Source of the DNA: Siphonodentalium dalli
Taxonomy: Eukaryota; Mollusca; Scaphopoda; Gadilida; Siphonodentaliidae
DNA length: 64,000 nt
Direction of reading: 5' to 3'
Assembly: GCA_032622095.1 (NCBI GenBank)
Contig: CP136062.1
Coordinates: 1,860,001 to 1,924,000, forward strand
Each line of letters begins with the position of its first letter. Within the stretch, counting starts at the first letter, position 1. The notes under the pieces are model-generated. The model was not told where the DNA came from. It made no database searches and was given only the letters and a program-made list of their open reading frames with translations. A program made the translations under genes and the position numbers. This document shows positions 35,284 to 59,131 of this stretch, piece by piece.

Positions 35284-35370
35284 CTACCGATAACAACAAA
35301 TCAGAGATTTCCAACTCTCTAATTGCAATTGTATAGTTGCTACTGCGTGGAGCATCATTCTCTCATACCT

Positions 35371-35383
35371 CAAGATGGCGCCG
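35371..35383 (+). promoter_or_regulatory. YY1-like motif in the LINE leader
   Basis: CAAGATGGCGCCG matches the AAGATGGCG core bound by YY1. It lies about 85 bp inside the inferred 5' end and 225 bp before ORF1. A YY1 site near the 5' end is known for mammalian L1; a similar role here is inference. Confidence 0.4.
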
Positions 35384-35608
35384 TAAACATTGAACAAAAT
35401 TTGGTGGAGAGAACTAATTAAATCTAATTAAGCATCCGACGTGATCGACACTCGTTTTTTGATACACAAGATGAACAACCGACAGAAGAACCATTACAGT
35501 AATATTTAATCATTTAACGTAAGGTTAAAAGTGAACTTTGAGGGTGAATTCCCAGCCTGCATTACAACGCCTATTCTCGTGATATAGACAATAAACGCCG
35601 ACAGTAAA

Positions 35609-36571
35609 ATGGATGATAAAAAACGTCCCCCGGCAAGTTCTACATCTAGCGCCAGTGGCGATGATAGCATGAATGGAGATTCAAAGAACCCACCTGCTTC
35701 TAGAACCAAATCCATTCCATCAAAGAAATTCAAAATGATTGATACAAATTCAAAGACTCAACAGAAATTACAGTTTGTAGCAGAACAGTCTGACACTGAC
35801 ATAGCTCCCAGCAGTATTGAGGCAGTACTAGCACAAATAAATTCCAAGCTAGATACAATGGTTACCAAAGACTACCATGACAAAAGCAACGAACCACTTG
35901 TTAAACTGGACAGCTTAAACCAGATAATAAACAAACTAAAATCTGACTTTGATGCAAAAATTGAAGATGCTAAAGATGAGTGCAGAGGCAAAGCCTTTGA
36001 TGTGGAAAAAAGGATGGACGACCTAAAAACTGAAATGAATGGCCTCAAGAAAGATATTAATGACAGGGATGACAAAGTAAATTCACTTGAGTCAGAAATT
36101 AGAGACTTAAAGGACAAAAACAACAAATTGGAGCAACACACTAGAAAGGATAGCATCAGGATATTTGGCTTACCAGGGGACAGCATTAAGGAGTCAGTGG
36201 ATGAATGTGAGAAGAAATGTGTTGAGTTGATGAATGATAAACTGTCCATGAATATAACACAGTGTGATATAGGTATTGCTCATAGAATAGGCAAACTCCA
36301 ACCAGAACAGAAGACTGGGTATTCGCGAAGCATAATATGTCAGTTTGTGTCAAGAAGAACTAAAAATGCTGCTATTAGTAATAGGAAACTTCTTAAAGGC
36401 TCAGGCATTGTGATCAAAGAAGACCTAACTGAATACAATACTAACTTAATCAAGAAATCTAAAGAAAGAAAAGAAGTTGCAGACACATGGTCAGTAGGAG
36501 GAAAGGTTTATGTGAAATATGTTAATGCATCTAAACCAATCAAACAGATAAAAGATATATCTGATGTGTAA
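35609..36571 (+). CDS. Non-LTR retrotransposon ORF1 protein
   Basis: 320 residues, intact. The first 90 are Ser/Lys/Asp-rich and probably disordered. Residues ~95-178 are a heptad-like charged helix (for example DVEKRMDDLKTEMNGLKKDI) expected to form a coiled coil. RKDSIRIFGLP at 179-189 begins an RRM-like fold, followed by AHRIGK and a basic C-terminal block (FVSRRTKNAAISN, KEDLTEYN). This coiled coil-RRM-CTD order is that of L1-type ORF1p, an RNA-binding chaperone that coats the element's RNA in the cytoplasm. Codon use is A-rich like ORF2. It has no stop or frameshift, unlike ORF2. The start is the first ATG after the leader. Minus-strand frames over it are shadows. Confidence 0.88.
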   Translation: MDDKKRPPASSTSSASGDDSMNGDSKNPPASRTKSIPSKKFKMIDTNSKTQQKLQFVAEQSDTDIAPSSIEAVLAQINSKLDTMVTKDYHDKSNEPLVKLDSLNQIINKLKSDFDAKIEDAKDECRGKAFDVEKRMDDLKTEMNGLKKDINDRDDKVNSLESEIRDLKDKNNKLEQHTRKDSIRIFGLPGDSIKESVDECEKKCVELMNDKLSMNITQCDIGIAHRIGKLQPEQKTGYSRSIICQFVSRRTKNAAISNRKLLKGSGIVIKEDLTEYNTNLIKKSKERKEVADTWSVGGKVYVKYVNASKPIKQIKDISDV

Positions 36572-36642
36572 ATGGTATTTGCACACAAAGTAATACACAT
36601 GAAAGTGCACAGTTTTGTATAGTCATGAGCAAACACTGGCTC

Positions 36643-36702
36643 ATGCATCTGCATATATTAAATAATTTAAATAAATATGCATCTGCATATATTAAATAAT
36701 TA
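36643..36702. repeat. 35-bp tandem duplication after ORF1
   Basis: ATGCATCTGCATATATTAAA followed by TAATT occurs at 36643 and 36678, immediately before the large tandem duplication. It may mark the left edge of the nested insertion. Confidence 0.85.
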
Positions 36703-37089
36703 TTCTACCAGATTATATCTTGATTTTTTTTGGATGATTTTATGATATTGATAGTATGTATATAATAGACCCCACTGACACATGTGATAAATGGAACACA
36801 ATACAGTTCTCTTTAAAAAAAAAAAAATCTCAATATCTGGACATATGTGCAAATGTCGTTAAAATTATAAATTAAATTGACTCATATATATCATAAATAA
36901 TCTGAATTATCTGGTTATATGGTTCATGAATACCACGAATAAATACTGAGTAGAATCTACAAACAAATTTCTAACACATGAACTAAGTATTTGCCCCACG
37001 AATTTATTATGTGTATATACCAAAATACACACACTCATAGCAATACCAGAAAAATCTTACAAGTACAGTATGCATATCAGATTGACAGC

Positions 37090-38190
37090 TTGAAGTTGAA
37101 CAGATAAGTTTGTATATTAGCCATTTCATTGTTATTGTATGCAAATACCATGCTCCTAATTATGTCAAAATGGTCATTTGTCCCTTGTAGCATATCAGTT
37201 TCTACCAAATAGAAGTTGTGATCATATATAAAGCATGATCCAGTAATGTTGATATTGAACTTTAGAATGATAGTAAGTTGTTTGATTAAGTGAGTCTCTT
37301 CATATTGATCAAACTCAAGTGCATATCAAGATAGAAATTGTGACAAAATGGTCATTTATCCCTTGTAGCATATCAGTTTCTACCAACTATAAGTTGTGAT
37401 CATATATAAAACATGATCCAGTAATGTTGACATTGAACTTTAAAATGATAGTAACTTAGTAAGTTGTTTGATTAAGTGAATCTCCTCATATGGATCAAAC
37501 TCAAGTGCATAGCAAGATAGTAAACTATGTACATGTACCGTACATTATTGAAGAATATACCATTTCTGATTTGACACTCTATTTCGGAAAACTCTGAGAA
37601 GATAAATATTTCGTACAATATCGTAACAAGTTACAAGTCGCCATATCTGTAGTAGTGTTTTCTTCTTCAAACTGGGACATGCAATGTTACTATATATAGA
37701 ACATAATATTCCTGATTAACATTGTTAAAATGTCAGTAAGTTGTTTGAATAAATGAATGTTGTCAAAATAACCTTTTTGTAAAGACTAGCAATTCAAATG
37801 TCTTCATAATTGATCAAACTCACCATCCATACATGTATGCACATACCAAACATTGTTGAAGAATAGATCATTTCTGATTTGATACTCTTTGTTTCGGAAA
37901 ACTCTAATAAGACAAATATTATGTACAATATTGTAACAAGTCACCACAGTTGTAGTAGTGTTTTTTTCTTCAATCTGGGACAGACAATGTTACTCTATAT
38001 AGAACATAATATTCCTGATTAATATTGAACTTTAAAATGGTAGTAAGTTGTTTGAAGAAGTGAATACTATCTGAAAACTATCAATATAAATGCTGGAAAG
38101 TTGTAACTCAAATAACTGAACTAATCAAAATCAAGTGATTAGCAAGCTAGTAAACCATCCATACGTGTATACATGTACCGTACATTAATG
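37090..38190. repeat. Satellite-like repeats in copy A
   Basis: Diverged ~170-bp and ~300-bp units with the markers CATATCAGTTTCTACCAA, TTTCGGAAAACTCT, GTAACAAGT and GTTACTATATATAGAACATA. Related single units occur at 52600-52830, outside the duplication. Confidence 0.85.
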
Positions 38191-39119
38191 AAGAATACCA
38201 ATATATAATAGCAACCACCCCGGTGGGTGTTTATACCTAAGGCGTGTGTGAATGATGACGTCATATAATTTTTCTATATATATTTCTATACGATGGAACG
38301 ATTTTCAGGAAAGAGTGTATGCATTTTTTCGGAATTAACACGTGACTTCCTCTCGCCACTGCGCATAATCCAGCAGAAACTACAGGGTGCTCAGATATAG
38401 CGGTGGAATACTCAGACAACAACTGATCAAATTAATTCCCAGGTTCTAGGTCACAGTACTCAGTTCTTACCGAGAATTAAATACAGTTTTTTCATCTGAT
38501 AAAATTCATTGTGATATTACAAGCATAATAAGTAAATAACTAATTATTCCCCGTCTAGCGACCGCCCTGCAATCCGGCTTACGGCAATTTAAGTGGTCCA
38601 GAAATTACTACCATATATCCAATAGCCTTCACCTTGAACTTCGCCGCCATAGCAAACAGTTTTTGACAATCGACAGTATTGCTCGCTTGATTTCGTGAAT
38701 TACGTTTTCTCCACTTCAACACTGTTGACAATTACTGAGTTATGCTGTTGTGAACTGTTAGAGACAACACTGATAAAGATTCAAGAATCATTTAATCAAC
38801 CAGTGAACCAAAACGTTCAACTTTCAACAGTTCAAGTTCATCATCATGGAAATTTAAAAACAAAGAAAGAATTCTGTGTTGCGGCGTGCAATGTAGTATG
38901 TTTCCTAATTCATAGTTACCGTCTTATCATTTGTGATTCAATCAGTCCATAACTGATTACAATTCAAGGAAGTGATATCTGATGAAGATTTTGGCGGTGC
39001 TGTTGTGAACACATACATGGTCCTGGATCGAGGCATTTTTAATCAAATCCAAGTTTTTTAAAGGTAGGTCTGTTTGCTTAAAAAATTAAATTTTAATTTA
39101 ATGTTATTCATTTAATCGT

Positions 39120-39830
39120 TTTTCATCATTTGACAATTTGTCGTCATTCGTTACTGTCGTCAGTGTGTACGTTTGTCGTCATTCCTGTTTGGTTGTCGTC
39201 TATCGACTATCGTTTTTCGTCCTTGGTAGTTTGTCGTCGTGTTTATTGTTGGTCATTCGTTTTCATTCTTTGTTTATTTGTCATCAGTCGTGTTTTTCGT
39301 TGGAAGTACACTGCGACCCAACTGTAGTTATCCAGTGGAGCCGCGGCGTACAATGTAGTTGCATTTTGGCCACGGTGGCAATACTATTACTAACTGCACT
39401 GTGGTTAAGTGGAAACTAGTTTTGTCCAGCAGGGTACATTATATCCCGTAGATTTTCGACTAGGATTGCCTATTAAAGCACAAACCAGGCGAACGAAAAA
39501 TACATGTACCATAGGTTACACATAATTTTGAAACCTGCAGGCCTGAGTCGATGTGTTTGTCGTCCAGACATTTTTCGTCGTCGATCATTCGACATTGTGT
39601 TTATCGTTGGCCGTTTGTTTTTTCGTCATCGGTAATTTTTGGTCATCGATATCGTGTTAGTCATTGGCCGTTTGTTTTTCGTCATCAGTCATTTTTCGTT
39701 GTCGGTCAGTATTTTACTTTGTTTTTTGTCATTTGTCATTGTCATTTATCGGGCATTTGCCACCATTCGTCAGCCAGTGTGTTTTTTCGTTAGTTGTTTT
39801 TTATCGTTGTTCATTTGACGTTGGTTGTTT
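39120..39830. repeat. T/G-rich degenerate repeat with TTTTCGTCATC-type words
   Basis: Runs of TTTGTCGTCATTCGT, GTTTTTCGTC and GTCATTTGTCATTGTCATTT dominate the + strand, with almost no A-rich counterpart. Reading frames through it are Ser/Val/Phe/Cys-rich and overlap in several frames. It is interrupted at ~39300-39436 by a fragment of the MITE found whole at 46138. The same tract is at 44069-44779 in copy B. Confidence 0.8.
39300..39436. mobile_element. Fragment of the GCTGGACAAA MITE (and 44249-44385 in copy B)
   Basis: The right terminus GTTTTGTCCAGCAGGGTA and the preceding CACTGTGGTTAAGTGG match the end of the 46138-46511 element. Inner words GCCGCGG, TGTAGTTGC and GGCCACGGTGG also match. 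The left terminus is missing. Confidence 0.65.
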
Positions 39831-40114
39831 TTCGGAACTTCTGCAGTCCTTCGAATTTGGAAAACGTAGGTGCCCGATATATCGCTCGGAGCTTTTGGGA
39901 TTTGCGCGCGCCTTTTTTGAGGGAGCACAATTCAAATTAACATCGATGAAATTATTACTGAATAAAGACAAACACAAGTATAATGGTATATTGGTATGCA
40001 CACGTTTAATTCCAAGTGTGGCAACAGAAACAGAAATAAAAACATTTGTTTATATTGTACATTTAGTCCACATGATGATAACATCAACAATCCCGGTGAA
40101 TCTGATCATGGTAA

Positions 40115-40446
40115 TTAGTCGGTTGCGATTATTGCAATACGATAGGGGAACACATTATGCGTAACGTAACTATCACAAGTATAACGTACTCTGATAACAT
40201 CGCCAGTTTCATGGTTCAGAAGTTTTAAACAAATCATCTTCGGCTTGTTTTATTTTATGTTTATGAAAAACTTAAAAGAATAATAAACGAGGTGATATAT
40301 ATATATAACAACACACAGAATCAAATTAGCCATTTTCCTGTGAAACCCAGAACAGGCAAGCTACGGTAGGTAAAAAAATTGGTGATATCTGAGTACGAAC
40401 GTCGGAGTGTTCCCCTATCGTATTGCGATAATCGCCAACCTAATTG
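40115..40446 (-). mobile_element. MITE with ~38-bp ends, copy A
   Basis: The ends TTAGTCGGTTGCGATTATTG (40115) and TGCGATAATCGCCAACCTAA (40424-40443) are inverted repeats that both run into CAATACGATAGGGGAACAC. 332 bp, no coding. It is the same family as 2742-3020. A one-base difference (GGTTGCG versus GGTTGGCG) separates it from copy B. Confidence 0.88.
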
Positions 40447-40914
40447 GTCGACTTCCGCGTCTGAGAGCGCATGCTCATCAGACTCGCTTAAAGGTTCAGA
40501 AAAGGCTGAATGGAATCAGGATAATTATTCTACCAGATTATATCTTGATTTTTTTTGGATGATTTTATGATATTGATAGTATGTATATAATAGACCCCAC
40601 TGACACATGTGATAAATGGAACACAATACAGTTCTCTTTAAAAAAAAAAAAATCTCAATATCTGGACATATGTGCAAATGTCGTTAAAATTATAAATTAA
40701 ATTGACTCATATATATCATAAATAATCTGAATTATCTGGTTATATGGTTCATGAATACCACGAATAAATACTGAGTAGAATCTACAAACAAATTTCTAAC
40801 ACATGAACTAAGTATTTGCCCCACGAATTTATTATGTGTATATACCAAAATACACACACTCATAGCAATACCAGAAAAATCTTACAAGTACAGTATGCAT
40901 ATCAGATTGACAGC

Positions 40915-43140
40915 TTGAAGTTGAACAGATAAGTTTGTATATTAGCCATTTCATTGTTATTGTATGCAAATACCATGCTCCTAATTATGTCAAAATGGTC
41001 ATTTGTCCCTTGTAGCATATCAGTTTCTACCAAATAGAAGTTGTGATCATATATAAAGCATGATCCAGTAATGTTGATATTGAACTTTAGAATGATAGTA
41101 AGTTGTTTGATTAAGTGAGTCTCTTCATATTGATCAAACTCAAGTGCATATCAAGATAGAAATTGTGACAAAATGGTCATTTATCCCTTGTAGCATATCA
41201 GTTTCTACCAACTATAAGTTGTGATCATATATAAAACATGATCCAGTAATGTTGACATTGAACTTTAAAATGATAGTAACTTAGTAAGTTGTTTGATTAA
41301 GTGAATCTCCTCATATGGATCAAACTCAAGTGCATAGCAAGATAGTAAACTATGTACATGTACCGTACATTATTGAAGAATATACCATTTCTGATTTGAC
41401 ACTCTATTTCGGAAAACTCTGAGAAGATAAATATTTCGTACAATATCGTAACAAGTTACAAGTCGCCATATCTGTAGTAGTGTTTTCTTCTTCAAACTGG
41501 GACATGCAATGTTACTATATATAGAACATAATATTCCTGATTAACATTGTTAAAATGGTAGTAAGTTGTTGGAAGAAGTGAATGTTGTCAAAATAGCAAT
41601 CTTGCATATACTGGTAATTTAATTGTCTTCATAATTGATCAAACTCAAGTGAACAGCGAGATGATGAATCATTCATACGTGTACATATGTAACGTACGTT
41701 TTTGAAGAATATATCATTTTTACTTGACACTATTAATTTCGAAAACTCTAATAAGTTAAATATTATGTACAATATTGTACAATATTGTAACAAGTCGCCA
41801 TAGTTGTAGTAGTGTTTTCTTCAATCTGGGACAGGAAATGTTACTATATATAGAACATAATAGTTCTGATTTACATTGAACATTTAAATGACAGTAAGTT
41901 GTTTGAAAAAATGAATGTTGTCAAAATAGCGACTTATTTAATACTGTAGTGTTTTCTTTAAACCAGGACAGGCAATGTTACTATATATAGAACATAATAT
42001 TCCTGACTAGTATTGAACTTTAAAATGATAGTAAACTGCTTTAAGAAGTGAATGCTATCAAAATAACCATTTTATTAATACTGGTAACTCAAATCACTTC
42101 ATAATTGATCAAACTCAAGTGAATAGTAAGATAATAAATCATCCATACTTGTATACATGTACCGCACATTATTGAAGAATATTAAAATATCATTTCTGAT
42201 TTGACACTCTATATTTCGGAAAAAGTCTGATATTAAGCTAAATACTACGTACAATATTATAACAAGTCGCCATAATTGTAGTCGTGTCTTTCACTTCAAC
42301 CTGGGACAGGCAATGTTACTATATATAGAACATAATATTCTTGATTAACATTGTTTTACACTTCAGTCTGGGACAGGCAATGTTACTATATATATAACAT
42401 AATATTCCTGATTAACATTGTTAAAATGTCAGTAAGTTGTTTGATTAAGTGAATCTCCTCATATGGATCAAACTCAAGTGCATGTACCGTACATTATTGA
42501 AGAATATACCGTTTCTGATTTGACACTCTATTTCGGAAAACTCTGAGAAGTTAAATATTTCGTACAATATCGTAACAAGTTACAAGTCGCCATATCTGTA
42601 GTAGTGTTTTCTTCTTCAAACTGGGACATGCAATGTTACTATATATAGAACATAATATTCCTGATTAACATTGTTAAAATGTCAGTAAGTTGTTTGAATA
42701 AATGAATGTTGTCAAAATAACCTTTTTGTAAAGACTAGCAATTCAAATGTCTTCATAATTGATCAAACTCACCATCCATACATGTATGCACATACCAAAC
42801 ATTGTTGAAGAATAGATCATTTCTGATTTGATACTCTTTGTTTCGGAAAACTCTAATAAGACAAATATTATGTACAATATTGTAACAAGTCACCACAGTT
42901 GTAGTAGTGTTTTTTTCTTCAATCTGGGACAGACAATGTTACTCTATATAGAACATAATATTCCTGATTAATATTGAACTTTAAAATGGTAGTAAGTTGT
43001 TTGAAGAAGTGAATACTATCTGAAAACTATCAATATAAATGCTGGAAAGTTGTAACTCAAATAACTGAACTAATCAAAATCAAGTGATTAGCAAGCTAGT
43101 AAACCATCCATACGTGTATACATGTACCGTACATTAATGA
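40915..43140. repeat. Satellite-like repeats in copy B, expanded
   Basis: This is the same unit set as 37090-38190 plus extra rounds of GGGACAGGCAATGTTACTAT and ATAATATTCCTGATTAACAT. Confidence 0.85.
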
Positions 43141-45062
43141 AGAATATCAATATATAATAGCAACCACCCCGGTGGGTGTTTATACCTAAGGCGTGTGTGA
43201 ATGATGACGTCATATAATTTTTCTATATATATTTCTATACGATGGAACGATTTTCAGGAAAGAGTGTATGCATTTTGTCGGAATTAACACGTGACTTCCT
43301 CTCGCCACTGCGCAGAATCCAGCAGAAACTACAGGGTGCTCAGATATAGCGGTGGAATACTCAGACAACAACTGATCAAATTAATTCCCAGGTTCTAGGT
43401 CACAGTACTCAGTTCTTACCGAGAATTAAATACAGTTTTTTCATCTGATAAAATTCATTGTGATATTACAAGCATAATAAGTAAATAACTAATTATTCCC
43501 CGTCTAGCGACCGCCCTGCAATCCGGCTTACGGCAATTTAAGTGGTCCAGAAATTACTACCATATATCCAATAGCCTTCACCTTGAACTTCGCCGCCATA
43601 GCAAACAGTTTTTGACAATCGACAGTATTGCTCGCTTGATTTCGTGAATTACGTTTTCTCCACTTCAACACTGTTGACAATTACTGAGTTATGCTGTTGT
43701 GAACTGTTAGAGACAACACTGATAAAGATTCAAGAATCATTTAATCAACCAGTGAACCAAAACGTTCAACTTTCAACAGTTCAAGTTCATCATCATGGAA
43801 ATTTAAAAACAAAGAAAGAATTCTGTGTTGCGGCGTGCAATGTAGTATGTTTCCTAATTCATAGTTACCGTCTTATCATTTGTGATTCAATCAGTCCATA
43901 ACTGATTACAATTCAAGGAAGTGATATCTGATGAAGATTTTGGCGGTGCTGTTGTGAACACATACATGGTCCTGGATCGAGGCATTTTTATTCAAATCCA
44001 AGTTTTTTAAAGGTAGGTCTGTTTGCTTAAAAAATTAAATTTTAATTTAATGTTATTCATTTAATCGTTTTTCATCATTTGACAATTTGTCGTCATTCGT
44101 TACTGTCGTCAGTGTGTACGTTTGTCGTCATTCCTGTTTGGTTGTCGTCTATCGACTATCGTTTTTCGTCCTTGGTAGTTTGTCGTCGTGTTTATTGTTG
44201 GTCATTCGTTTTCATTCTTTGTTTATTTGTCATCAGTCGTGTTTTTCGTTGGAAGTACACTGCGACCCAACTGTAGTTATCCAGTGGAGCCGCGGCGTAC
44301 AATGTAGTTGCATTTTGGCCACGGTGGCAATACTATTACTAACTGCACTGTGGTTAAGTGGAAACTAGTTTTGTCCAGCAGGGTACATTATATCCCGTAG
44401 ATTTTCGACTAGGATTGCCTATTAAAGCACAAACCAGGCGAACGAAAAATACATGTACCATAGGTTACACATAATTTTGAAACATGCAGGCCTGAGTCGA
44501 TGTGTTTGTCGCCCAGACATTTTTCGTCGTCGATCATTCGACATTGTGTTTATCGTTGGCCGTTTGTTTTTTCGTCATCAGTAATTTTTGGTCATCGATA
44601 TCGTGTTAGTCATTGGCCGTTTGTTTTTCGTCATCAGTCATTTTTCGTTGTCGGTCAGTATTTTACTTTGTTTTTTGTCATTTGTCATTGTCATTTATCG
44701 GGCATTTGCCACCATTCGTCAGCCAGTGTGTTTTTTCGTTAGTTGTTTTTTATCGTTGTTCATTTGACGTTGGTTGTTTTTCGGAACTTCTGCAGTCCTT
44801 CGAATTTGGAAAACGTAGGTGCCCGATATATCGCTCGGAGCTTTTGGGATTTGCGCGCGCCTTTTTTGAGGGAGCACAATTCAAATTAACATCGATGAAA
44901 TTATTACTGAATAAAGACAAACACAAGTATAATGGTATATTGGTATGCACACGTTTAATTCCAAGTGTGGCAACAGAAACAGAAATAAAAACATTTGTTT
45001 ATATTGTACATTTAGTCCACATGATGATAACATCAACAATCCCGGTGAATCTGATCATGGTA

Positions 45063-45395
45063 ATTAGTCGGTTGGCGATTATTGCAATACGATAGGGGAA
45101 CACATTATGCGTAACGTAACTATCACAGGTATAACGTACTCTGATAACATCGCCAGTTTCATGGTTCAGAAGTTTTAAACAAATCATCTTCGGCTTGTTT
45201 TATTTTATGTTTATGAAAAACTTAAAAGAATAATAAACGAGGTGATATATATATATAACAACACACAGAATCAAATTAGCCATTTTCCTGTGAAACCCAG
45301 AACCGGCAAGCTACGGTAGGTAAAAAAATTGGTGATATCTGAGTACGAACGTCGGAGTGTTCCCCTATCGTATTGCGATAATCGCCAACCTAATT
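45063..45395 (-). mobile_element. MITE with ~38-bp ends, copy B
   Basis: Duplicate of 40115-40446, with the left end intact as GGTTGGCGATTATTGCAATA. Confidence 0.88.
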
Positions 45396-45456
45396 GGTCG
45401 ACTTCCGCGTCTGAGAGCGCATGCTCATCAGACTCGCTGTAAGTTTCCGAAAAGGC

Positions 45457-45710
45457 TGAATGGAATCAGGATAGGCAGGTCCGGTCTATGCATGTGTCAT
45501 TTTTTGACGCGCACGACAAGAGGATCGAACACTTCCACAACTGTTCTAGTTTGGGTCAAACACGCACAATGCGTTGTCAAGCTGATCAAATTGACCGTAT
45601 GGTTTACGGAACTTTAGTTAAGTCGTTCCGCTCAGTTTTATTCGACAAAATATTATTACATTAAAAACTGCGCATGCGCAGACCGGACCTGCCTATCCTG
45701 ATTCCATTCA
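45457..45710. mobile_element. 254-bp element with exact 31-bp inverted ends
   Basis: TGAATGGAATCAGGATAGGC... (45457-45487) and its exact reverse complement (45680-45710) bound 192 bp without genes. The first 17 bases of this terminus also end copy A, where they join directly to the start of copy B, so a duplication breakpoint fell inside the terminus. Confidence 0.9.
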
Positions 45711-45957
45711 GTGACCACCTAAAGGTTCAAACTCGGAAGTGTAATCCTAATCGTTTCACTGCTGAGAAAGATACATGGTGAATAGTCTTGTCGGCGTTTA
45801 ACCATTGGTGTGTTTTGTTTGTTAAAATCTCGTTCGCTGGTTGCAAATTTCGAGGTGCGCATTTGAAATTTTCGGCGTGCGTATTTAATAACTTGCTGGT
45901 TTTTAGATCTGCGCGCCTTGGCAAGCGCAATTGCGCGCCTCAAAATGGAAGGACTGA

Positions 45958-47145
45958 CTTATGTCTGTGTGTGGGTCTTATAGAATCAAAAACTGCTCAA
46001 CTATCTATCCCACTAAAATTTAGTATGTGCATGTATTATATGTCTACTTTGATCCCAGAAATGAGCGGGTCCAATTTCATGAGTGACCATGTCCTTGATC
46101 ATGACCTCGCTCATATACATGTACATGTACCGGTAGGTACCCTGCTGGACAAAGCAAGTGTCCACTTAACCGCAGTGCGGTCAGCGTTGCCACCACAGCT
46201 GAAATGCAACTACACCGCGGCTCCACCGGCTAACTACAGTTCGGCCGCGGTGTACGGTACTTGTCGTTCGGCCATGGTGTAGTTGCCACAGTGTACGTCA
46301 TTAAACTGAAAAAAGATGATACAAATCATGCCATTCAGCCGCTGTGTAGTTGCCTTTCAGCCGCAGTCACGGCGCAGTGTACTTGATATTCGGCCACGGT
46401 GTACTTGTCGTTCAGCCGCGGTGCTCAACTGCAGTTACAAACTCTGACACCGCGGCCGAATGGCAAATACACTGCGGTGCCAATGGACACTTGATTTGTC
46501 CAGCGGGGTATATGCTCACACCGGTATACTATTGGCATGTGTCTGGACCTCAACCAATTGATTGGTACATTTATGCAGCCCTTTTAATTCAGATTGTTTG
46601 GCTTCGGCAATCCGCTACGGCAACACTATGGTCCAGTTTTCTGCAGCAAATTGCTTCGGCAATGCTGATTGCCGTACCAGTAGCTAATCATGAAAGCTGT
46701 GTATGTAGGCTTCTTTCATCCTGGAAACAATATGGGCAGACCTGTCTAATTTCACATGATGCGACTGTCCTTGACATTGACCTACGGTACTGGTAGCACA
46801 CATACGCTCATATGTTTCTGGACCTCGACTGATCGTTTGTCCAGATGCTGTATATTTTGTCCAAACAGAGACGATCATAGAGAAATCCCAAAATAGAGCG
46901 GAAGAAGTCAGTCACATCACTTGGTCTATTATATTATATTATATTTTGGAATTGCTGTCTGTGTGTTATAGACTCGAAAACTGCACAACTGATCTGGCTA
47001 AAATTTGGTAATGTACCAAAGGTCTACTGTACATGTACTTTGATCCCGGGAACTACCGGTATATGGGTAGGAATAATTTCATGTGCGACTGTGTCCGTGA
47101 CTGCGACCTCGATATATACTCATACATTGATACCGGTAGGCAACG
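45958..47145. repeat. Two diverged direct copies ~1 kb apart
   Basis: CTGTCTGTGTGTG, AAAACTGC.CAACT, TACTTTGATCCC and TTTCATG.G.GAC.GTGTCC occur in order at 45958-46135 and again at 46953-47145. The MITE at 46138 abuts the first copy. The long frames 45788-46282 and 46350-46796 run through this and the MITE and are not considered genes. 45711-45957 holds nothing recognisable. Confidence 0.7.
46138..46511. mobile_element. 374-bp MITE, CCCTGCTGGACAAA ends
   Basis: TACCCTGCTGGACAAAGCAA (46138) and TTGATTTGTCCAGCGGGGTA (46492-46511) are inverted repeats with TA at both ends. The interior is full of CCGCGGTG/CACCGCGG words and TGTAGTTGCC. GC-rich compared with its flanks, with no transposase. Confidence 0.88.
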
Positions 47146-48238: not shown

Positions 48239-48930
48239 AATGCGTTATTTTCCACGGAGCGTTTGTATATATACAGCATGTAAATAGTGAGCGATAAGCA
48301 AATCACTTTCAGACAACGTGGCGATTGATTAGGTCGAGAGTGATTGATGGTAACCCATTCAACACCAAAATATGAGATTTAGCTTATTGGCTATACCGGT
48401 AATGCAGTATGTTGTAAACAAACAACAAAAGTTCATATACTGGTACTAGTACATGTACATGCAGTGGGGGTCTACTCGGTGTTGAGTGTTTTGCTTATCG
48501 CATACTCTTTACATACATGTACATGTACATGTAATGTTTGTTTACGTAAGATGACTTTTGCTTACAAACAATGTAACACAAAGTACTAACATAACATGAT
48601 AACAACATGCTGAAATTAATGTGGTACATGTATTTATGATTTGTATGAGAACAAGGTTTGATTATTATAACATTAATTCTGTATTAAATATGGCGGTTTT
48701 AATGGATCATGGATGTGACTATTTTAACACAATACCCAGCGCCAACACTTACCCGACCTTTAGAAAGATCCTCATGGACATATATCATAATTTTCTTCAA
48801 CGTCTGGTGTGACAACCCGCTAATACCTGTAGACCGTGTTATCATAACCGAACGGCAGTGACCGTTTACATACCACTGTCATCATGTCATTGCCAATTCA
48901 TTAAATGCGACACATCACATATTCATTATT
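48239..48930. other. Intergenic, rich in ACATGTAC
   Basis: Runs such as TACATGTACATGTACATGTA occur at 48451-48465 and 48513-48532. Nothing else is recognised. Confidence 0.55.
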
Positions 48931-51420
48931 AGCTCATCTTACTTTGTAAGTTTGAGCTATTGCCATGGGTTGGCATCCGTCGTGCGTGTGTACATGTACA
49001 TGTATGTCCGTCAACAATTTCCTTTGGCGCGGGCTACAGGTCGTACATTTGGTCTGATCTTTAGGAAATTTGTCAAGAATGTTGACATTGACATGTAGAT
49101 GGGAATGAGTCATTTTGGGGTCATTGGCCAAAAAACATGGCCGCTGACGGCCATCTTTGATTTCAAGATTAAATCAATTGGCGCGGTCTACAGGTCGTAC
49201 TGTTTGTCTAATCATCATGAAATTTGTCATGGATGTTAATAATGACATGTAGATGGGAATGAGTCATTTTGGGGTCGTTCGGCCGAAAAAACAAGGCCAC
49301 CAGCAGCCATCTTGGATTTTACTCGTTGCATGACTAAATCCTTTGGCACAGCTTCAAGTCCTTACTTTGGTCAGATCATTATGAAATTTGTCATGAATGT
49401 TGACATTGACATGTAGATGGGAATGAGTCATTTTGGGGTCATTTGGCCAAAAAACATGGCTGCTGGTGGCCATCTTGGATTTTACTCTTTGCATCACTAA
49501 ATCCTTTGACACATCCTACAGACCACATCTCTGATCCCATCATCACCAAACTTCATATGGATCATCGGGGTGACCTCTAGATGGGAACGATTCATTTTGT
49601 GGTCATTTGGCCAAAAATCATGGCCACCGTCAGCCATCTTGAATTTTACTCTTTGCATCACTAAATAATTTCGCGCTGTCTACAGGTCGTATCTTTGGTC
49701 GGATCTTTATGAAATTTGTCATGAATCTTGAAATTGACATGTAGATGGGAACGAGCCATTTTGGGGTCATTCGGCCAAAAAACATGGCCGCTGGTGGCCA
49801 TGTTGGATTTCAAATTTGAATCCCTTGGCGCGGGCTACAGGCAGTACTGTTTGTTTGATCATCATAAAATTTGTCATGAATGTTGACATTTACATGTAGA
49901 TGGGAACGAGTAATTTTAGGATCAATCAGCCAAAAAACATGGCCGCTGGTGGCCATATTGGATTTTACTCTTTGCATCACTAAATCCTTTGACACATCCT
50001 ACAGACCACATCCCTGATCCGATCATCACCAAACTTCATATGGATCATCGGGGTTACCTCTTGTTGGGTATGAGTCATTTTGGGGTCATTCGGCCAAAAA
50101 AATGGCCGCCGGCAGCCATATTGGATTTTACTCTTTGCATCACTAAATACTTTGACACACCCTACATACCACATCCCTGATCTGATCATCACCAAACTTC
50201 ATATGGATCATCAGGGTGACCTCTTGATGGGTATGAGTCATTTTGGGGTCATTCGGCAAAAAAATATGGCCACCAATGGCCATTTTGGATTTTACTCTTT
50301 GTATGACTAAATATTTCTACAAAATCCATTAGCATGGGTTATAGACCTATCTGTTTTTTTTTATCTTCATGAAATTTGTCATGGATGTTGACATTGACAT
50401 GTAGATGGGAAACGAGTCATTTTGGGGTCATTCGGCAAAAAAACATGGCCGCAGGTGGCCATTTTAGAATTTACTCTTTGCATCACTAAATCCTTTGGTA
50501 CACCCTACAGACCACATCCGATCATTATGAAACTTGTCATGAATGTTAATATTGATATGTAGATGGGAACGAGTAATTTTGGGGGTCATTCAGCCATCTT
50601 GGATTTCAAAATTGAATCCGTTGACGCGGGCTACAGGCCATACTGCTGTACTGTTTGTCTGATCTTCATAAAAATTATCATGGATGTTGACAGGTCTGAT
50701 CATAATGAAATTTGTGATGAATGTTAACAATTACTTGTAAATGCAAACAAGTCTTTTTGGGATCATTCGGCAAAAAAACATGACTGTCAGTGGCCATCTT
50801 GGATTTTACTATTTGCATAACTAGGCCTTTCCACATTCCTAATCACTCCATTGACTGTAACACATGAAATTATTCCCTTTCCAAGTTGAGCTACAGTGTC
50901 ATTGACACTTTCATTAAATTTGTCATGGATGTTAAAATTGACATAGATGGGAAACGAGTAATTTTGGGGTTGTTCAGCCAAAAACATGGCCACCAGCAGC
51001 GATCTTGGATTATACTCGTTGCATGACTAAATTCTTTGTCAAGGGCTACAAGTCTTATCTTTGGTCAAATCATTTACATGTAGATGGGAAAAGATTCATT
51101 TTGAATTCAATCAAGAAACCCGGTCGCCAGCAGCCATCTTGTATTTTACTCTTTGCAAGACTAAATCCTTTGACATGGGCTACAGGTCGTATCTTTTGTA
51201 GGATCATCATGAAATTTGTGAAGGATGTTAACAATGACATGTAAATAGGAAGGAGTCTTTGTTGGGTCATTTGGCAAAAAAAAACATGGCTGTCGCGGCC
51301 ATCTTGGATTTTAATCTTTGCATAACTAGGCCTTTCAACTTTCCACATTCCTAATTGCTCCATTAACTGTAACACATGAAATTATTTCCTTTCCACATTG
51401 AGCTACAGTGTCATTGACAC
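48931..51420. repeat. Tandem array of ~165-bp units, about 14 copies
   Basis: The marker ACATGTAGATGGGAA or a variant lies at 49095, 49245, 49412, 49580, 49739, 49894, 50063, 50223, 50400, 50560, 50735, 50943, 51076 and 51240. Each unit reads GAAATTTGTCATG, the marker, GAGTCATTTTGGGGTCATT, CCAAAAAACATGGCC, GCCATCTTGGATTTTACTC and then GCATCACTAAATCC. It opens with AGCTCATCTTACTTTGTAAG and CATCCGTCGTGCG. Divergence between units is 10-25% by eye, so the array is old. All short frames in it are repeat read-through. Confidence 0.93.
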
Positions 51421-51514
51421 TTTCATAATTACATTTCAGTCAATTCACATTTTCAGCTGCATATATGTAAACCAATTTCATCATTAAAGAAATTGCAAAT
51501 TCATCGTTGATCAT

Positions 51515-51950
51515 CATCTCAACATTTCATTAAAGTGAGACTTTATGTTCACACATCGATTCATTCAGGCAACATTTTTTCCATTTCTACACTGGTCATT
51601 GCATTGATCGTCTTCAATGGGGATAATATATAATTCTATATGTATATCATCGTTAACTATTAAAGTGAAATTTCTCTTCCACCCAATCGATATTGCATTA
51701 AAATGACGCTTCATATTCATTACACTTCATTCAATAATTTCTGTTTCTACATGTACATACCCTTCAGGTAAGGTAATCTATGTCCGACTCAAAATATTAA
51801 AGTGACGCATCATATTCACAACACTTCATTCCATAATTTCTTTTTCTACATACTTGTAGTTTACATGTATTGCATTGATTGCCTGCAGCTAAGATAATCT
51901 ATGACCGACTCAAATAATACAAATATTAAAGGCATTCCATTTCCATCCAT
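51515..51950. repeat. Three diverged ~110-bp tandem units
   Basis: TTAAAGTGA.(A/G)C, TTCATATTCA..ACACTTCATTC and AATTTCT.TTTCTACAT recur at 51530, 51700 and 51800, with ATGTCCGACTCAAA / ATGACCGACTCAAA in the last two. Confidence 0.7.
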
Positions 51951-52009
51951 TAATATTAATTTAATTCTAAGGAAACTTCTGCTGTGATATATATATGTAT
52001 ATATACATA

Positions 52010-52534
52010 CAGGGTACTACATGTGCTACACCACTCGGAGAAATGTCTGTGTCATCACACTAAAATACCTTGTTAGAACTTGAATTGATATATTCGTAAT
52101 CGTATATAGTCACCAATAGCCAGGTTACTACCGTAGTACCTGACATTGCCCATCTAGTGAACTATTCAAACACAACAGGCCTGGTTGATTTCGCTGTGGG
52201 ATGATGGTTCACTTCCATCCTCAAGCTATGGCATAATTTGTTCTGACGTGCAGGGGTAGATATGCTTGAGGCCCCACTACAGTTCAATTTACACCAGGTT
52301 CTCAGCTATTATGATCTTATGTTCGAACTTTACTTATATGTTTGGACTGATCATAACCATGATTTTAATGCTGGGTTTGAATAGTTCACCGGATGGACAA
52401 TTTCTGCTACTACCGTAGTAACCCGACTATTGGTGACTATATACGATAACGAATATATCAATCCAAGTTCTAACATGGTATTTGTGTGACGACACAGACA
52501 TTTCTCCGAGTGGTGTAGCACATGTAGTACCCTG
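52010..52534. mobile_element. 525-bp foldback with ~160-bp arms
   Basis: CAGGGTACTACATGTGCTAC (52010) is matched by GTAGCACATGTAGTACCCTG (52515-52534). The arms pair on through CACTCGGAGAAATGTCTGTG and ACTATTGGTGACTATATACG with scattered mismatches. The central ~210 bp is single copy. CAG/CTG ends would fit hAT, but no flanking 8-bp duplication is seen. Confidence 0.9.
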
Positions 52535-52599
52535 TACGGAACATCCTATAATTAGTGTAATATTGAATTTAATGATCAACTTGGTGGTTGCTCCATTAC

Positions 52600-52830
52600 G
52601 TGTCACGTACGATCATATTATCTGATTTGACACTCATTATTATTTCGGAAAACTCTGATAAATTGAATACTATGCAAAATACTGCGGCAAGTCGCAATAT
52701 CTGTAGTAATGTTTTCTTCATCAATCTGAGACAGTTGTTTGAAGTGAATGTTGATAAAATAGCCATTTTATAAATACTGGTAACTCAAATATTTCATAAT
52801 TAATCAAAATCAAGTGAATATAAATAAATG
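52600..52830. repeat. Outlying copy of the copy-A/B satellite
   Basis: TCTGATTTGACACTC, TTTCGGAAAACTCTGATAA, CAAGTCGCAATATCTGTAGTA and TCAAAATCAAGTGAATA follow the satellite order, diverged. Another fragment (GGACAGGAAATGCTACTATA) is at 53208-53227. Confidence 0.75.
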
Positions 52831-55110
52831 TTTTTTGTTTCTGTTTCCTTTTGTTTGGTCATCCATTTTTTCTTTTAATTGAAGCTCCAAATACCGGTAC
52901 TCTTGAGCTAAATGCATTAACTATGGTGAAGCAGGAATGGACTATTTCAAGACAAATGGATTAACTGATTTCGCAATTCTCATTTTATAGGACTTGAACA
53001 ACTTACGCTGTTAACTACAATGATCCTAGTTTGCTATATTTAGTACATAACTTTTTCTCATTGAAGACTTGTGTTTATACAAATTAATTCAAATGTAACA
53101 TGTTATAATGTAGCAAGCACTCATTGTTATTGTATTATTGGCATGACTTTCTAATCTCTTTTCACTAACAGTGACAGGAACTTCCTTATCTCTTTTCACA
53201 AACAGGGACAGGAAATGCTACTATATATAAAACAGCTCCAACACATTTATGACCAAATGAGACTCTTGATATAAATGCACAAACTTATGGTGGAGCAGGA
53301 ATGGTCTATTTCGGAACAAATTGACCCACTAGTGTCAAAATCCCCATATTATCGGATTTAAACAAATTACACTTTTGACTAGAATGAACCTATATTCAAA
53401 ATAGGGGTGCATGTACTTGAAATTGAAATACAGCTTTCACATATCAACATTTATCTTAATTACAATTAATGCATACATAATTATTTACAAAATTACAATG
53501 CAATTGTAATATATAAATTAGTCTTTACACAAATTACACTAAACCCAGTCCTAATTATATAATCATATACATTTATGTCAGATACATAAATAGTTTAAAG
53601 TGAATGCTAGCTGATGGCATAAATTTCCATCACTACAAGTTAAGGAAATACATGGGATGGCGAGAATTATTGGTTGTCAATTATCCAATTAAAACACCAT
53701 GTCTCCGCCATTAGCTTGAGCTTAAGCATGAGTCTCATTTGTTATCTAGCTTTGATGCAATGAATTAAATGTATATTCCATGCACTTCCACAGTGAAACA
53801 TGCATATGTAAATGAATTAGCCTCATATATTGCTACCAAAATTATGACTTTCACAATATAGCCTACGTCATTATGAAACAATTATCAATTCTAGTTTGAT
53901 ATTCTATATGGGCCTGATGTTGGCCCTCGGTAGCCTCATAATATAATGTGGGGTTGCCTTTGGCAGACGTCGGGACTATTATTATCAATTCAGCTAATTA
54001 AGATTCTCCCAAATTGGATGTATTGATATTAACTGATATCCGAAAATGTTTAAATAATGCTACTCACCACATATCCAGAATTATATTATCAATATCACTA
54101 ACGCACATGTTGGACATCTCGTGTGTATTAACAATAGCGAATCAAATTTTAAACTGAGACAACAAACTGTCTGACTGTCGTGCGAGCGGCTTTTTTCTCT
54201 GCGTGGCAATGAATTCAGCTACATTTGCTTCTACAGCTGTTCTAAGTTCTGGCATATACACATACAAATTATAGAACAAAATATAACGAACGAATTATAT
54301 TCCACACGAATATCCAACCGAAATAGCATACATGTGAAAACAAACTTTCAATAGACTGTCCCCACAGCAGTCTGATTCAGTCTCTCGCATCACGCGTGGT
54401 TAGTGGCTGCAGGAAAAAAGCGTGCGAATTTGATGACGGAAGAATCATAATATTTTGATACTCGATTCGAGTGGATGGATACAGCAAGGGCCAGAATAAT
54501 TCGCTTTTTCGCCAATCGTGCGCCTTTGACATTTTGGTACTGTATCGTATCTCGCTCATAATAAATATCGAGATGACAATATATGCATAAATACAAATAT
54601 GTTTAAAGTGAGGTCCCCTCTTTGGGTATGTATTATAGATAAATATCCTTTCTAATGAGGCTGCACGGATTCATTGCTTGACTCGTAGAAATCTGGATAT
54701 ATGCCTCTCCATTCAGGGACGGGATTTGGGGATGCAAAGGGGAGTCACTGGTGTGACATCATCGCTATTTCGATAGCCAATGGCTGTATATAAATAAGCA
54801 CTTGTTCAATTGTTGATTTGCATATACTTCAAGATGTGTATACTTATTCGTATAATTTGTTTTGTTCCACAATTGATATTGACTCGCATAATATAATACT
54901 CTCTTTCTTCCGCATGTATATAATCTCCAATCACGGATACATTTTCTTTGACATAACTCCACCAAACAAATTGAAATTGAAAGTTAAACTTACATTAATT
55001 TATGATATCCATATTAGTTTCCATGTATATGTACAGACGTTCAGTACCACGACATAACCAAATGGTCGTAATCAGGGGCCCACATAACAACACCTTAGAA
55101 ACCCCCCATT
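52831..55110. other. AT-rich sequence before ORF2, nothing firm
   Basis: No array or inverted repeat of note. The right edge of the nested insertion should lie here if the split-LINE reading is correct, but it could not be located. Confidence 0.45.
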
Positions 55111-58100
55111 ATGTCTGCAAATAACATAACTTTGAGTGAGGTAAGGGACACGCGTACGCATGACTTCGCGGCGAAATGGTCTCAAATAGAAGGAGACGAA
55201 TTTGAACCCGACAGCATCCAACTCTGGAATCAAAATACCTGCCAATATCTCTCGCCCACAGAGGGTAAAGAATTTCTCTCAAATAACATAAAATTCTCTC
55301 TTTTTGGCATACATTGCAGAAGCCTTAACGCAAATTATGAAAACCTGAAAAACCTACTCTGTGATTTGAATTCAGAAGAATATATGTTTGATGTTATCGC
55401 CCTGACAGAAATATTCAATGTGCATAGATCCTCAGACTTCTCACTTCCAGGATATCACCCCTTAGAATTTAATACTCGACCCGATGGCGACGATGGCAGA
55501 GGCGGTGTTGGTATCTACATCAAGGAAAATATACAATACAAACTAAGACCCGACTTGACAATATTTATTCCCCACGTAATAGAAACAATATTTGTAGAAA
55601 TACACAGAGGAGCGAACGATATTTACATAATAGGATGTATTTATAGACCAAATACAGCACCGAAGGCCGACTTGGACAAATTTATGTTGAAATTCGATAA
55701 TATCTTAGAGAAATTGAAAAAAGCCAAGTCTTACATAATAGGAGACCTCAACATTAACCTTCTCAATTTCGATACGCATGCAAAAACTAACGATTTCATA
55801 AACAATGTTTTTACAAGAGGATTCATGCCCATGATTACGAAACCTACAAGATTAACCGAACACTCTGCCACCATAATTGATCATATCTATACCAACAAAA
55901 TGCAAGATAGTCACCAAACAGGGATAATTACCTGCGATGTTTCCGATCATTTCGGTATATTCATCTCTGAAGCAAACAAGCAGAAACCATTAAACCCCTC
56001 CCATAAAAAAGCTACATATAGGAACTATAATATTAATAATGTCCATATATTCAAAAACTTGTTAAAATCGTGTAAATTTGACTCAGTTCTCAGTTGCAAC
56101 TCATCTGAAAAGGCATATGAATGTTTTTTAGACATATACATGACCGCGCACGACCTAGCTTTTCCGCTCGTAACACAGAAAGCACCCAAGAAATATATCA
56201 AACGCGCACCATGGATGACAACTGGACTAATCAAATCATCAATCACCAAACAAGAACTCTACTGTAATAAACTGAATTCGCCTTCGGACACAAATAAAAT
56301 TGCCAACATAAATTATCGTCAATTATATAATAAACTAATTAGGAAAAGTAAAAATAGTTATTTTTCTGACTGTCTAGAACAAAATAAAAATGATATAAAA
56401 AACACATGGAAAATTCTTAAAAATGCCATCAATAAAAAGCAAAAATCGTGTTACTATCCTAAGATATTTAATGATAACAATATAAAGCTATCTGACCCAA
56501 ACATAATAGCCAAAACATTTAATGACTACTTTTCAAAAATCGGTGAAAACACTAGCAGTTCTATTCATTCTGAAACCTCAGACGCAGACTTTACTGACTA
56601 TCTTCGAAATAGACAAGCACACGAATTAGAAATCGAACCGACATCCATTCAGGAAATAATATTAACATGTTATTCTATGAAAGGAAAAAAGAGCAAAGAT
56701 TACATCGGCATATCGACTGAACTCATGAAAGAGACTATCTTCATAATAGCCCCAGCACTTAAGTATATATTTAATCTTTCGTTTGAACAGGGAATAGTCC
56801 CAATGAACATGAAAATCTCTAAAGTAGTTCCCATTCCCAAAATAAACAACGCCAAGGAAATAACACACTATCGTCCAATCAGTATCCTTCCATCGTTCTC
56901 TAAACTGCTTGAAAAATTAATGCAAAAACGACTTGTAGATTTTCTTAAAGACAATGAAATATTATATAAACACCAATATGGATTTAGACCAAACCACTCA
57001 ACGTTTCATCCTATTATGCATCTTCTAGATCATTTCGTTAATAATAATGATAAACCGACACGGGATTCCACCCTGGCCCTATTCCTTGACTTATCTAAAG
57101 CGTTCGATACAATAGACCACAATATACTACTATCAAAACTTGACCACTATGGTATTAGGGGTGTAGCAAAGTCGTGGTTCCATAGTTAGTTATATGACAG
57201 GAGACAATATGTTGAATATTGCGGGAGTGCTTCAAACCTTATGAATACTTCCTGTGGAGTCCCACAAGGCTCAATTCTTGGGCCAATAATATTTTTAATA
57301 TACGTGAATGATATGGCAAATTCTACAACAATGGACTTTTTATCGTATGCCGATGATACCACTCTCTTTACAAGCGGGTTGGGAATTAGTACAAAGTTAT
57401 GTCAACAACGAATTAGCCAATGTATTCGATTGGTGCTGCTGTAATAAACTTGCAATTAATATTAATAAAAGCAACTATATGCTCATACACCCACCGAATA
57501 ATGACAAAAAATGGAATACTTTGAAAATAAAGTTAAATCACAATGAATTGAATCGAATAGGGAATCTTGGGCACGAATCCTCAACAAAATTTTTAGGTAT
57601 CCATTTTGATGAGAACATGACGTTCAAAAAGCACATATCCATAATCTGCTCTAAAGTATCACATGCAATATATTGTATCAATAAGGTGAAACATTTTTTC
57701 CCGAGTAAAGCGTTGAAAACTTTGTACAATGCATTGATTCAAAGCCAATTAGTTTACGATATCCAAATATGGGGACATGTTCCAGAAGTCAAGAAAATTT
57801 TTCTATTACAAAAACGAGCAATGCGTATAATATGCAATAAGAAGTATAGGAGTCACACAGACCCGCTCTTTAAAAAAGAAAATATCTTGAAAATATATGA
57901 CTTACACACCATCAATTCTACAATGTTCGTGCATGACTGGTAGTATGACCGTCTGCCGGCTTCTTTTAAAATGATGTACAACAATCGAGCAAAATCAACT
58001 CCAAGACACCCTAATCCCCTGCTACTAGAAAAACCTAGAACCAAATTTTCTGGAAGATTACCACACCACGCCTTCCCCACAATATGGAACAACCTTGAAG

Positions 58101-58169
58101 CTGAATACACACATGCATACAAAGCAGGCATATATTGAAGAAACGCTTACAGACAAAAATACTTGGTAA
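55111..58169 (+). pseudogene. Non-LTR retrotransposon ORF2: APE endonuclease and reverse transcriptase, broken
   Basis: The protein makes and integrates DNA copies of its own mRNA by target-primed reverse transcription. The intact first part has 692 codons (55111-57186). The endonuclease shows Glu100 in ALTEIF, GDLNINL at 211-217 and SDH at 278-280. The reverse transcriptase starts near PIPKINNAKEITHYRPISIL and has motif A FLDLSKAFD (Asp660). A TAG at 57187 breaks the frame inside WFHS*LYDRRQYV. The same frame then gives GVPQGSILGP (57256) and YADD (57346-57357). A frameshift between about 57361 and 57400 moves coding to the next frame, which gives FDWCCCNKLAININKS and FLGIHFDENMTFKKH. In-frame stops follow at 57941 and 58136, inside a tail with W.NL. 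The domain order fits CR1/L2-like clades. It is not functional as written. Confidence 0.92.
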
Positions 58170-59131
58170 TTATCTAAAAAAATGTACGCCGTAAAAACAC
58201 AGGATGTCCCGACTGTACCGATACATAATACGAATACTTATATTAAAATAAACACCTTGTATACACATAGTTCTATTCGGCAGCACAATCATAGTTCTAC
58301 TCTACCATTTTTATTTCCACCACCGCGTCCTCGGTCATATCAAAGGCTACAATACCAATACCACGATGACTACAACGCAAGTCATAATATCGACACATTA
58401 AAGGTGAACAAGCATATTTAAAGTAATGGACACTCATGCCGAGTCTGCGCCTCCAATCTATGATGGTATACACACACATAATTATCACATTTAGTTAACA
58501 TTCTCCCTTAAACCTCACTCAACAAAAAGCCCTTCCGGCGAATCATATGAATTCATATTTATTTGTATTGTTACTATAAAAGATGCATAATCTCTCCCCA
58601 GAATCCTATGAATCTATGAGTATGAAATAATAATTCTGAGTCGGATGAGACATCGTGGTGAGCTTGTGTTCTGAGATTTCATCATGAGAACTTCTCTATA
58701 ATCTGAATACTATTCTCTCAATCTTCGTTTGAAACTAAGACATGCAGAAACTTCTCATACTTTAGAACATGTGACAAGAACGTAACGTTTCCGGGGAGAG
58801 ATAAAGCGATATAGTGATAACTCGTCTGGACTGGCTCACAAACATATAAACACTTTTGTAAAAAAAAAAAAAAAATGCCCTGAACATTTTGTCTTATATT
58901 ATTTGTTATATATACGATTAGTCTGTACGTGTACGTGGATACGAATATAAATAATACTCACGCTATCTGATAAATTATTTGTATAATGATATTTGTTATG
59001 GGGGAAACAGGAAGACAGCCCGGCAGGGCTATGTTCCCCCCAGCAATATACTGAATTATTCTAGTTATATGTTAATTTATTGTACTATTCATATGTGTAT
59101 TGTAAATACAAATATCCTATCCTATCCTACC
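58170..59131 (+). other. LINE 3' region with (TCCTA)n tail
   Basis: No gene. An A15 run lies at 58860-58875. GGGCTATGTTCCCCCCAG lies near 59025-59045. The element ends AATATCCTATCCTATCCTACC at 59111-59131. A short microsatellite tail rather than long poly-A is common in CR1/L2-like LINEs. Confidence 0.7.

Follow-up and report, generated by a model that had tools for sequence, protein, structure and literature searches.

A two-ORF LINE of the scaphopod Siphonodentalium dalli whose ORF1 and ORF2 are very probably separated by a native, non-coding spacer of several kilobases

Long interspersed nuclear elements (LINEs) are commonly viewed as compact, with the second open reading frame (ORF2) starting shortly after the first (ORF1). 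A locus of Siphonodentalium dalli raises the question of how far apart the two frames of one element can lie. In a stretch of 64,000 bp (assembly GCA_032622095.1, contig CP136062.1, positions 1,860,001 to 1,924,000; hereafter the window, whose numbering is used throughout), an ORF1 and an ORF2 of LINE type are separated by 18,539 bp within a host repeat, R. A first-pass annotation, made from the sequence alone, had read the pieces as one LINE opened by some 18 kb of nested DNA. Here, we compared the window with itself and with related copies in the genome (2.23 Gb in 9 contigs). The comparison makes it very probable that the element is a two-ORF LINE with a native, multi-kilobase, non-coding inter-ORF spacer, which in the window was opened by a nested repeat, N, and then tandemly duplicated. 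The LINE moves as one unit, every subfamily measured has a spacer, the spacers gave no coding signal in our tests, their arrays turn over, and N is nested in the window copy.

Self-comparison defined the borders of the insertion. The R alignment runs up to 35288 (31412-31866 versus 34831-35288) and picks up again at 59128 (31863-32544 versus 59128-59806). Once joined, the two R flanks align uninterrupted over the join to 31412-32538 (1131 columns, 81%). The segment 35289-59131 is a single insertion into R. The continuous R restored by the joined flanks upholds the cut after 35288 given by the first-pass annotation, and its claim of one insertion point for one parent element agrees with the R alignments and with the recurring ORF1-ORF2 pairs described below. 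The word CTACC that it had noted on both sides does flank the insertion at both edges. We do not call it a proven target duplication, because the LINE tail itself terminates in CCTA and because the edge words of other copies are at chance level: words common to both sides span only 4-7 bases (12 comparisons, 11 copies), and random pairs gave 4-6 bases in 1816 of 2000 cases and 7 in 101. No target-site duplication beyond chance was detected in these 12 comparisons of 11 copies besides the window, in which the edges of L011 and L018 may belong to later insertions; CTACC may be microhomology. R itself is present as several diverged copies at either side of the LINE (30653-35288 and 59128-64000).

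What fills the gap became apparent from four sister copies that carry the window's spacer sequence across it (L024, L025, L026, and L027). The spacers of L024, L025, and L027 measure 4975, 4869, and 5925 bp and are collinear with the window save for array copy number, and L026, which is cut inside ORF1, still shows a spacer of the window type. In L024 and L025, which lack N, the base matching 43159 runs directly into the base matching 52615-52619. N accounts for 9455 extra bp in the window and is a dispersed repeat with copies that agree in the base at which they begin or end; the 3' end common to these copies extends six bases further, to 52620. The copies seen have TAATA at the start (upstream of 43160) and TATTA at the finish, and inside N a tandem array spans 49.0-51.4 kb and inverted repeats lie at 52008-52177/52369-52536. 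N has 28 open frames of 75 or more amino acids; 8 of them were compared with Pfam and gave no transposase, with three weak matches below curated cut-offs. Within these 8 frames, the hAT label of the first-pass annotation was not confirmed and N did not prove to be an autonomous transposon; it may be a non-autonomous element. A tandem duplication of about 3.8 kb (36696-40520) accounts for further length: identity is 99.4% between 37522-40523 and 42470-45473, and 93.9% between 36696-38065 and 40521-41916. It is later than N, because the duplicated unit holds the start of N. Subtracting N (9455) and the duplication (3825) from 18,539 leaves 5259 bp, which matches the spacer size of the sister copies. 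Only part of the inter-ORF gap is thus indicated to be later-inserted DNA, and about 5.3 kb of it to be native to the LINE.

We then asked how ORF1 and ORF2 are spaced across the genome. The best 125 of 2292 ORF1 candidates were scored and 126 ORF1 protein matches entered pairing; for ORF2, the best 64 of 27,266, 52 of 36,161, and 135 of 5,675 candidates of three queries were scored (251 matches). An ORF2 was paired when it lay on the strand of the ORF1 within 60 kb. This held for 39 of the 126 ORF1 matches, and two of these pairs were set aside, both pointing to one ORF2 at 37 and 58 kb. The remaining 37 pairs are the window, its twin locus (see below), and 35 others, whose spacers all measure 2597-8108 bp; none has the adjacent or overlapping ORFs of a compact two-ORF LINE. 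Copies with ORF2 directly after ORF1, a check that the first-pass annotation had proposed, were accordingly absent among these best-scoring candidates. Grouped by ORF1 identity to the window, spacers are 4869 and 5925 bp in the two copies at 97-98%, 4371-7268 bp in seven at 63-68%, 5239-5328 bp in the eight of subfamily B (56-58%), 4458-4989 bp in the six of subfamily B' (53-55%), 5503-8108 bp in the five of subfamily C (47-48%), 6468 bp in one further copy at 47%, 2597-2610 bp in four at 46%, and 5429 and 6134 bp in two at 44%. Beyond the paired lists, DNA matches of the window family have the same ORF order at C6:65.77 Mb (4975 bp) and C5:212.24 Mb (~5 kb). Larger gaps of ~8.5-13 kb occur in this family at C1:17.59, C4:278.68, C1:239.88, and C8:131.56 Mb. 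At C2:9.40-9.44 Mb, 36 kb separate the closest pieces of ORF1 and ORF2. Two LINE pairs at C7:6.40 and 6.80 Mb, 0.4 Mb from each other, have spacers of 7266 and 7268 bp and are probably a segmental duplication.

Two copies of subfamily B on different contigs are 98.3-98.7% identical along their spacers, and two copies of subfamily B' are 99-100% identical outside one length difference. Because copies at different sites are 98-100% identical along the spacer in two subfamilies, the comparison indicates that the spacer travels with the element. In the window family, ORF1 copies elsewhere are 97-100% identical and many ORF2 copies 97-98%. Right flanks all differ among 14 fetched ORF2 copies, and the left flanks of seven ORF1 copies hold the window's R flank in two (C2:5.96 and C6:65.77 Mb) and other DNA in five. 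A copy at C2:5.94-5.97 Mb, which lies inverted on the contig of the window, is a duplicate of the window locus: 4.3 kb that take in the R flank match at 99.7%, N and the partial copy of N are present, and the gap is again 18.5 kb. It lacks a stretch matching 57634-58154. The copy at C6:65.77 Mb, with an unbroken 96% match from R into the LINE and no N, seems to be an older duplicate of the window's insertion, though its ORF2 match ends at the equivalent of 58864. In L015, L019, and L023, the ORF2 copy starts within the spacer beside unrelated DNA, and the matches listed include no other piece of spacer in the vicinity, as expected if one RNA templated the spacer and ORF2. L010, L011, L013, L018, and L020 were probably interrupted later and not truncated, because their upstream spacer piece sits some kilobases away. 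Several copies elsewhere start or break at 54.05-54.75 kb, in the 3' part of the spacer, possibly a favoured site for later insertions or truncations. L028 (C8:165.77 Mb) is a derivative without ORF2 in which a decayed ORF1 and a shortened spacer are joined to the 3' end of the LINE; at its junction, sequence matching 55102 passes within some 10 bases into sequence matching 58562.

The termini and reading frames place the element among known LINEs. Twelve of 41 ORF1 DNA matches begin at 35355-35373, the usual 5' start. Only three of the 41 include the 82 bases at 35289-35370: the window, its twin at C2:5.96 Mb, and the copy at C6:65.77 Mb, of which the latter two also carry the window's R flank. 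The leader said to open the insertion is therefore present from 35371, and the 82 bases ahead of it do not belong to the 5' end usual for the family. The AAGATGGC motif is present at the 5' terminus, and we liken AAGATGGCG / AAGATGGC at this position to the YY1 site of human L1. YY1 is reported to bind the L1 5' end (PMC11602158). The first look at the sequence was correct in that ORF1 is still open, with 320 uninterrupted codons, and that ORF2 is broken: the frame from 55111 is intact for 692 codons and thereafter continues as pieces in other frames. The ORF1 structure model (mean predicted local distance difference test score 60) starts with a long helix that we take to be a coiled coil, and its helix/strand order presumably resembles that of L1 ORF1p, as far as this low-confidence model goes. 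Pfam RVT_1 and Exo_endo_phos were found in the window ORF2 and two sister ORF2s. These two sisters (866 and 993 amino acids, of which the last ~180 and ~50 lay outside the Pfam search) matched only RVT_1 and endonuclease families, with no RNase H domain. ORF2 is uninterrupted for 1003-1096 codons in some sister copies, and the open ORF2 proteins of young copies are 99-100% identical. The (TCCTA)n tail noted earlier is a common 3' end, at which 10 of 14 fetched ORF2 sister copies stop (base matching 59129). The dispersed copies share this 3' end and are truncated to differing extents at the 5' side. To judge from its predicted domains, the element is a two-ORF LINE with endonuclease and reverse transcriptase.

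Table 1. Features of the LINE insertion and its surroundings in the window.
Feature	Position	Strand	Basis or remark
Repeat R, left of insertion	30653..35288	.	self-comparison; joined-flank alignment
82-bp segment between R and usual LINE 5' end	35289..35370	+	in 3/41 ORF1 matches
LINE leader, opens with AAGATGGCG motif	35371..35608	+	12/41 ORF1 matches start at 35355-35373
ORF1, 320 amino acids, open	35609..36571	+	predicted long helix, then strands and helices (low-confidence model)
LINE's own spacer, 5' part with tandem array	36572..38210	+	also in sisters L024, L025, L027
First unit of tandem duplication, starts inside 5' spacer part	from 36696	+	self-comparison
Partial N (first ~2.31 kb), belongs to tandem duplication	38211..40520	+	99% match to N positions 1-2314
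Spacer array, second unit of tandem duplication	40521..43159	+	36696-38065 versus 40521-41916, 93.9%
Nested repeat N, ~9.46 kb, within LINE spacer	43160..52614	.	absent there in L024, L025; dispersed family, same ends
LINE's own spacer, 3' part	52615..55110	+	nearly all covered by 10 other copies, 93-99%; adjoins 5' part directly in L024, L025
ORF2 (endonuclease, reverse transcriptase)	55111..58418	+	frame broken after codon 692 and once more further on
(TCCTA)n-tailed 3' end, followed by R	59100..59131	+	10/14 sister copies stop at equivalent of 59129
Repeat R again, right of insertion	59132..64000	.	R matches at 59128-60113 and 63296-64000

The spacer has a guanine-cytosine content of 30-33% (seven complete spacers). 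Its longest stop-to-stop frames fall inside the shuffle range in six of eight spacers (40 dinucleotide shuffles each), and tblastx among spacers gave 41 listed matches, all between L030 and L031 in several frames and on both strands, without coding signal. A third gene hidden in the spacer was rejected on these two results. No RNA family was detected in the window or the spacers (seven sources) at Rfam thresholds. Tandem repeats of some kind are present in 11 of 15 stretches downstream of an unpaired ORF1. Between B and B', the 3' half of the spacer is 82-93% identical per 200-bp window and the 5' half is largely unalignable, and four-fold degenerate sites of ORF2 are 89% identical (30 of 272 differ); near-neutral drift together with array turnover would produce such a divergence. 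When the window family is compared with the C9 subfamily (ORF2 85% identical in DNA), the spacer aligns only in the last ~165 bp before ORF2 (70%) and in one 53-bp stretch. Three subfamily C spacers (L033, L057, and L058, at C2:94.34, C3:37.10, and C6:44.15 Mb) contain tandem arrays of the 3' end of their own ORF1. The 79-base ORF1 3' end occurs 26, 19, and 31 times (own end counted) in these spacers of 7.05, 5.50, and 8.11 kb, with a spacing of mostly 226-272 or 151-157 bases, and array copy number tracks spacer length in all three. By this pattern, most of the subfamily C spacer is a minisatellite grown from the end of ORF1, and the arrays show a retrotransposon that grows a minisatellite from its own gene. 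Such an array was rejected as the general origin of the spacer: it is present in 3 of 3 subfamily C copies but was found neither in 5 other spacers, three of them compared with only the last 46-78 ORF1 bases, nor in 15 downstream stretches. A retrotransposed intron was also rejected, as the joins of L028 and L005 lack GT/AG borders.

Several readings of the gap have to be weighed against a native spacer. The view of the first-pass annotation, in which nested DNA makes up all ~18 kb and opened a compact LINE, is highly improbable. The annotation was right about a large nested insertion (N) and about the tandem duplication, which the 99.4% and 93.9% self-matches bear out; N and the duplication together make up ~13.3 kb of later DNA. 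The remaining ~5.3 kb is shared by sister copies inserted elsewhere, and all 35 other pairs keep 2.6-8.1 kb between their ORFs. We give virtually no credence to a chance meeting of separate ORF1 and ORF2 elements at one insertion point in R. Although first-look candidates were far more numerous for ORF2 DNA (3573) than for ORF1 DNA (114), 5' truncation accounts for this excess, same-strand pairs with a constant order and a spacing typical of their subfamily recur at many sites, and the inter-ORF DNA is collinear among copies. Some results weigh against the native spacer itself. Only best-scoring candidates were paired, so that a compact subfamily could be missed, and 87 of the 126 ORF1 matches are unpaired. 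In favour of a spacer, no ORF2 match lay within the 2.9 kb downstream of 15 of the 87, but at this distance a late-starting ORF2 escapes, since L035, which holds the first ~50 ORF2 codons, also gave no match and L052 begins like L035, with an ORF2 that may begin unseen near 2.6 kb. In addition, the longest frame of two of the eight spacers is rarely reached by shuffles: that of L029 (1 of 40) is a simple-repeat frame, and for that of L031 (2 of 40) no explanation was found. Finally, the folding of the DNA before ORF2, given below, speaks against a strong structured internal ribosome entry site directly upstream of it.

Two accounts of the spacer's role are compatible with the structure proposed here. 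The spacer may be a passenger from an ancient invasion or duplication of the source element, copied unused while drifting and expanding neutrally, which we consider to have nearly an even chance. It fits that the 3' half of the B and B' spacers (82-93% identical) diverges near the rate of four-fold ORF2 sites, that the 5' half is largely unalignable and the arrays vary freely, and that coding and Rfam signals are lacking. Less easily explained is that 35 of 35 pairs in several subfamilies retain at least 2.6 kb though shorter elements should copy more completely, and that no spacer-free revertant appeared among the best-scoring matches. Alternatively, the spacer might separate two transcription units, with ORF2 expressed by its own promoter or by splicing and the full RNA serving as template, a possibility that deserves attention without being favoured. 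Between ORF1 and ORF2 lie 64-276 ATGs, which make scanning from ORF1 implausible, and the ~165 bp before ORF2 are still alignable between the window family and C9 where the rest, save 53 bp, is not. On the other side, the AAGATGGC motif is absent from the sense strand of 8 spacers and occurs in antisense once or twice in three window-family spacers, and no spliced copy was recognised, the L028 and L005 joins lacking GT/AG borders.

Under the native-spacer structure, the LINE inserted into R, the 9.46-kb N later opened the spacer, and the array together with the first 2.3 kb of N was then tandemly duplicated. The life cycle could be as follows. The 5' leader would drive transcription of an RNA of at least 10 kb including the spacer, and ORF1 would be translated from its 5' end. 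ORF2 would need a separate start of expression, because scanning past so many ATGs is implausible; internal ribosome entry, a second promoter, or a splice form could provide it. In five 150-nt stretches taken just upstream of ORF2, folding did not surpass that of shuffles (z -0.06 to 2.88), and neither this folding nor a motif scan of 8 spacers gave structural or motif evidence telling which kind of ORF2 expression is used. Target-primed reverse transcription would copy the RNA, at times halting inside the spacer, and tandem duplication and contraction would turn the spacer over. A more speculative and rather unlikely extension is that in this lineage a single mobile RNA has come to carry two genes with separate expression, kept apart by a spacer that is selected for length, not sequence. 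Tandem duplication would build this spacer anew, using the 3' end of ORF1 in one subfamily.

From its motifs, we presume that the element belongs to the CR1/L2/Jockey group. It resembles these LINEs in the long predicted helix of ORF1, in an ORF2 with endonuclease and reverse transcriptase and no RNase H match, and in 5' truncation, a short-repeat tail, and, as far as the 12 edge comparisons show, the lack of clear target duplications. It differs in the 2.6-8.1 kb of non-coding inter-ORF DNA, where the usual gap in the group is at most some hundreds of bases. The ORF2 of subfamily B also matches human L1 ORF2p structures in the PDB (E 3e-19). Mammalian LINE-1, however, has an inter-ORF spacer of 63 bp and poly(A) tails, unlike the multi-kilobase spacer and (TCCTA)n tail of the S. 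dalli LINE. To our knowledge, the architecture is unlike that of any other LINE. With a length at or above ~10 kb, named as the traditional limit in a review (PMC6431247), the element is comparable to giant retroelements such as Terminons, Ogre, and Burro, which are Penelope-like or long terminal repeat elements, several with extra coding domains; the extra length of the S. dalli LINE is instead non-coding and lies between ORF1 and ORF2. No report of a multi-kilobase inter-ORF LINE spacer was found among the papers listed from the open PMC literature, at the level of titles and abstract starts, a scope that leaves Repbase-type records and subscription journals outside. The parts belong to a known kind, the two-ORF endonuclease LINE, and what seems new is the multi-kilobase inter-ORF architecture. 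A lineage that keeps 2.6-8 kb of non-coding inter-ORF DNA together with young open ORF2 copies is hard to square with the compact-LINE view, and the mode of ORF2 expression becomes a directly testable question. Annotation could split such elements or, as happened at this locus, misread the entire spacer as nested insertions.

Other repeats of the window lie away from the LINE. A 218-bp palindrome at 7801-8018 is 95% self-complementary, with weaker ones at 9872-10149 and 12491-12630. Short tandem arrays occur at 1-304 (period ~37 bp) and 2071-2345 (period ~72 bp).

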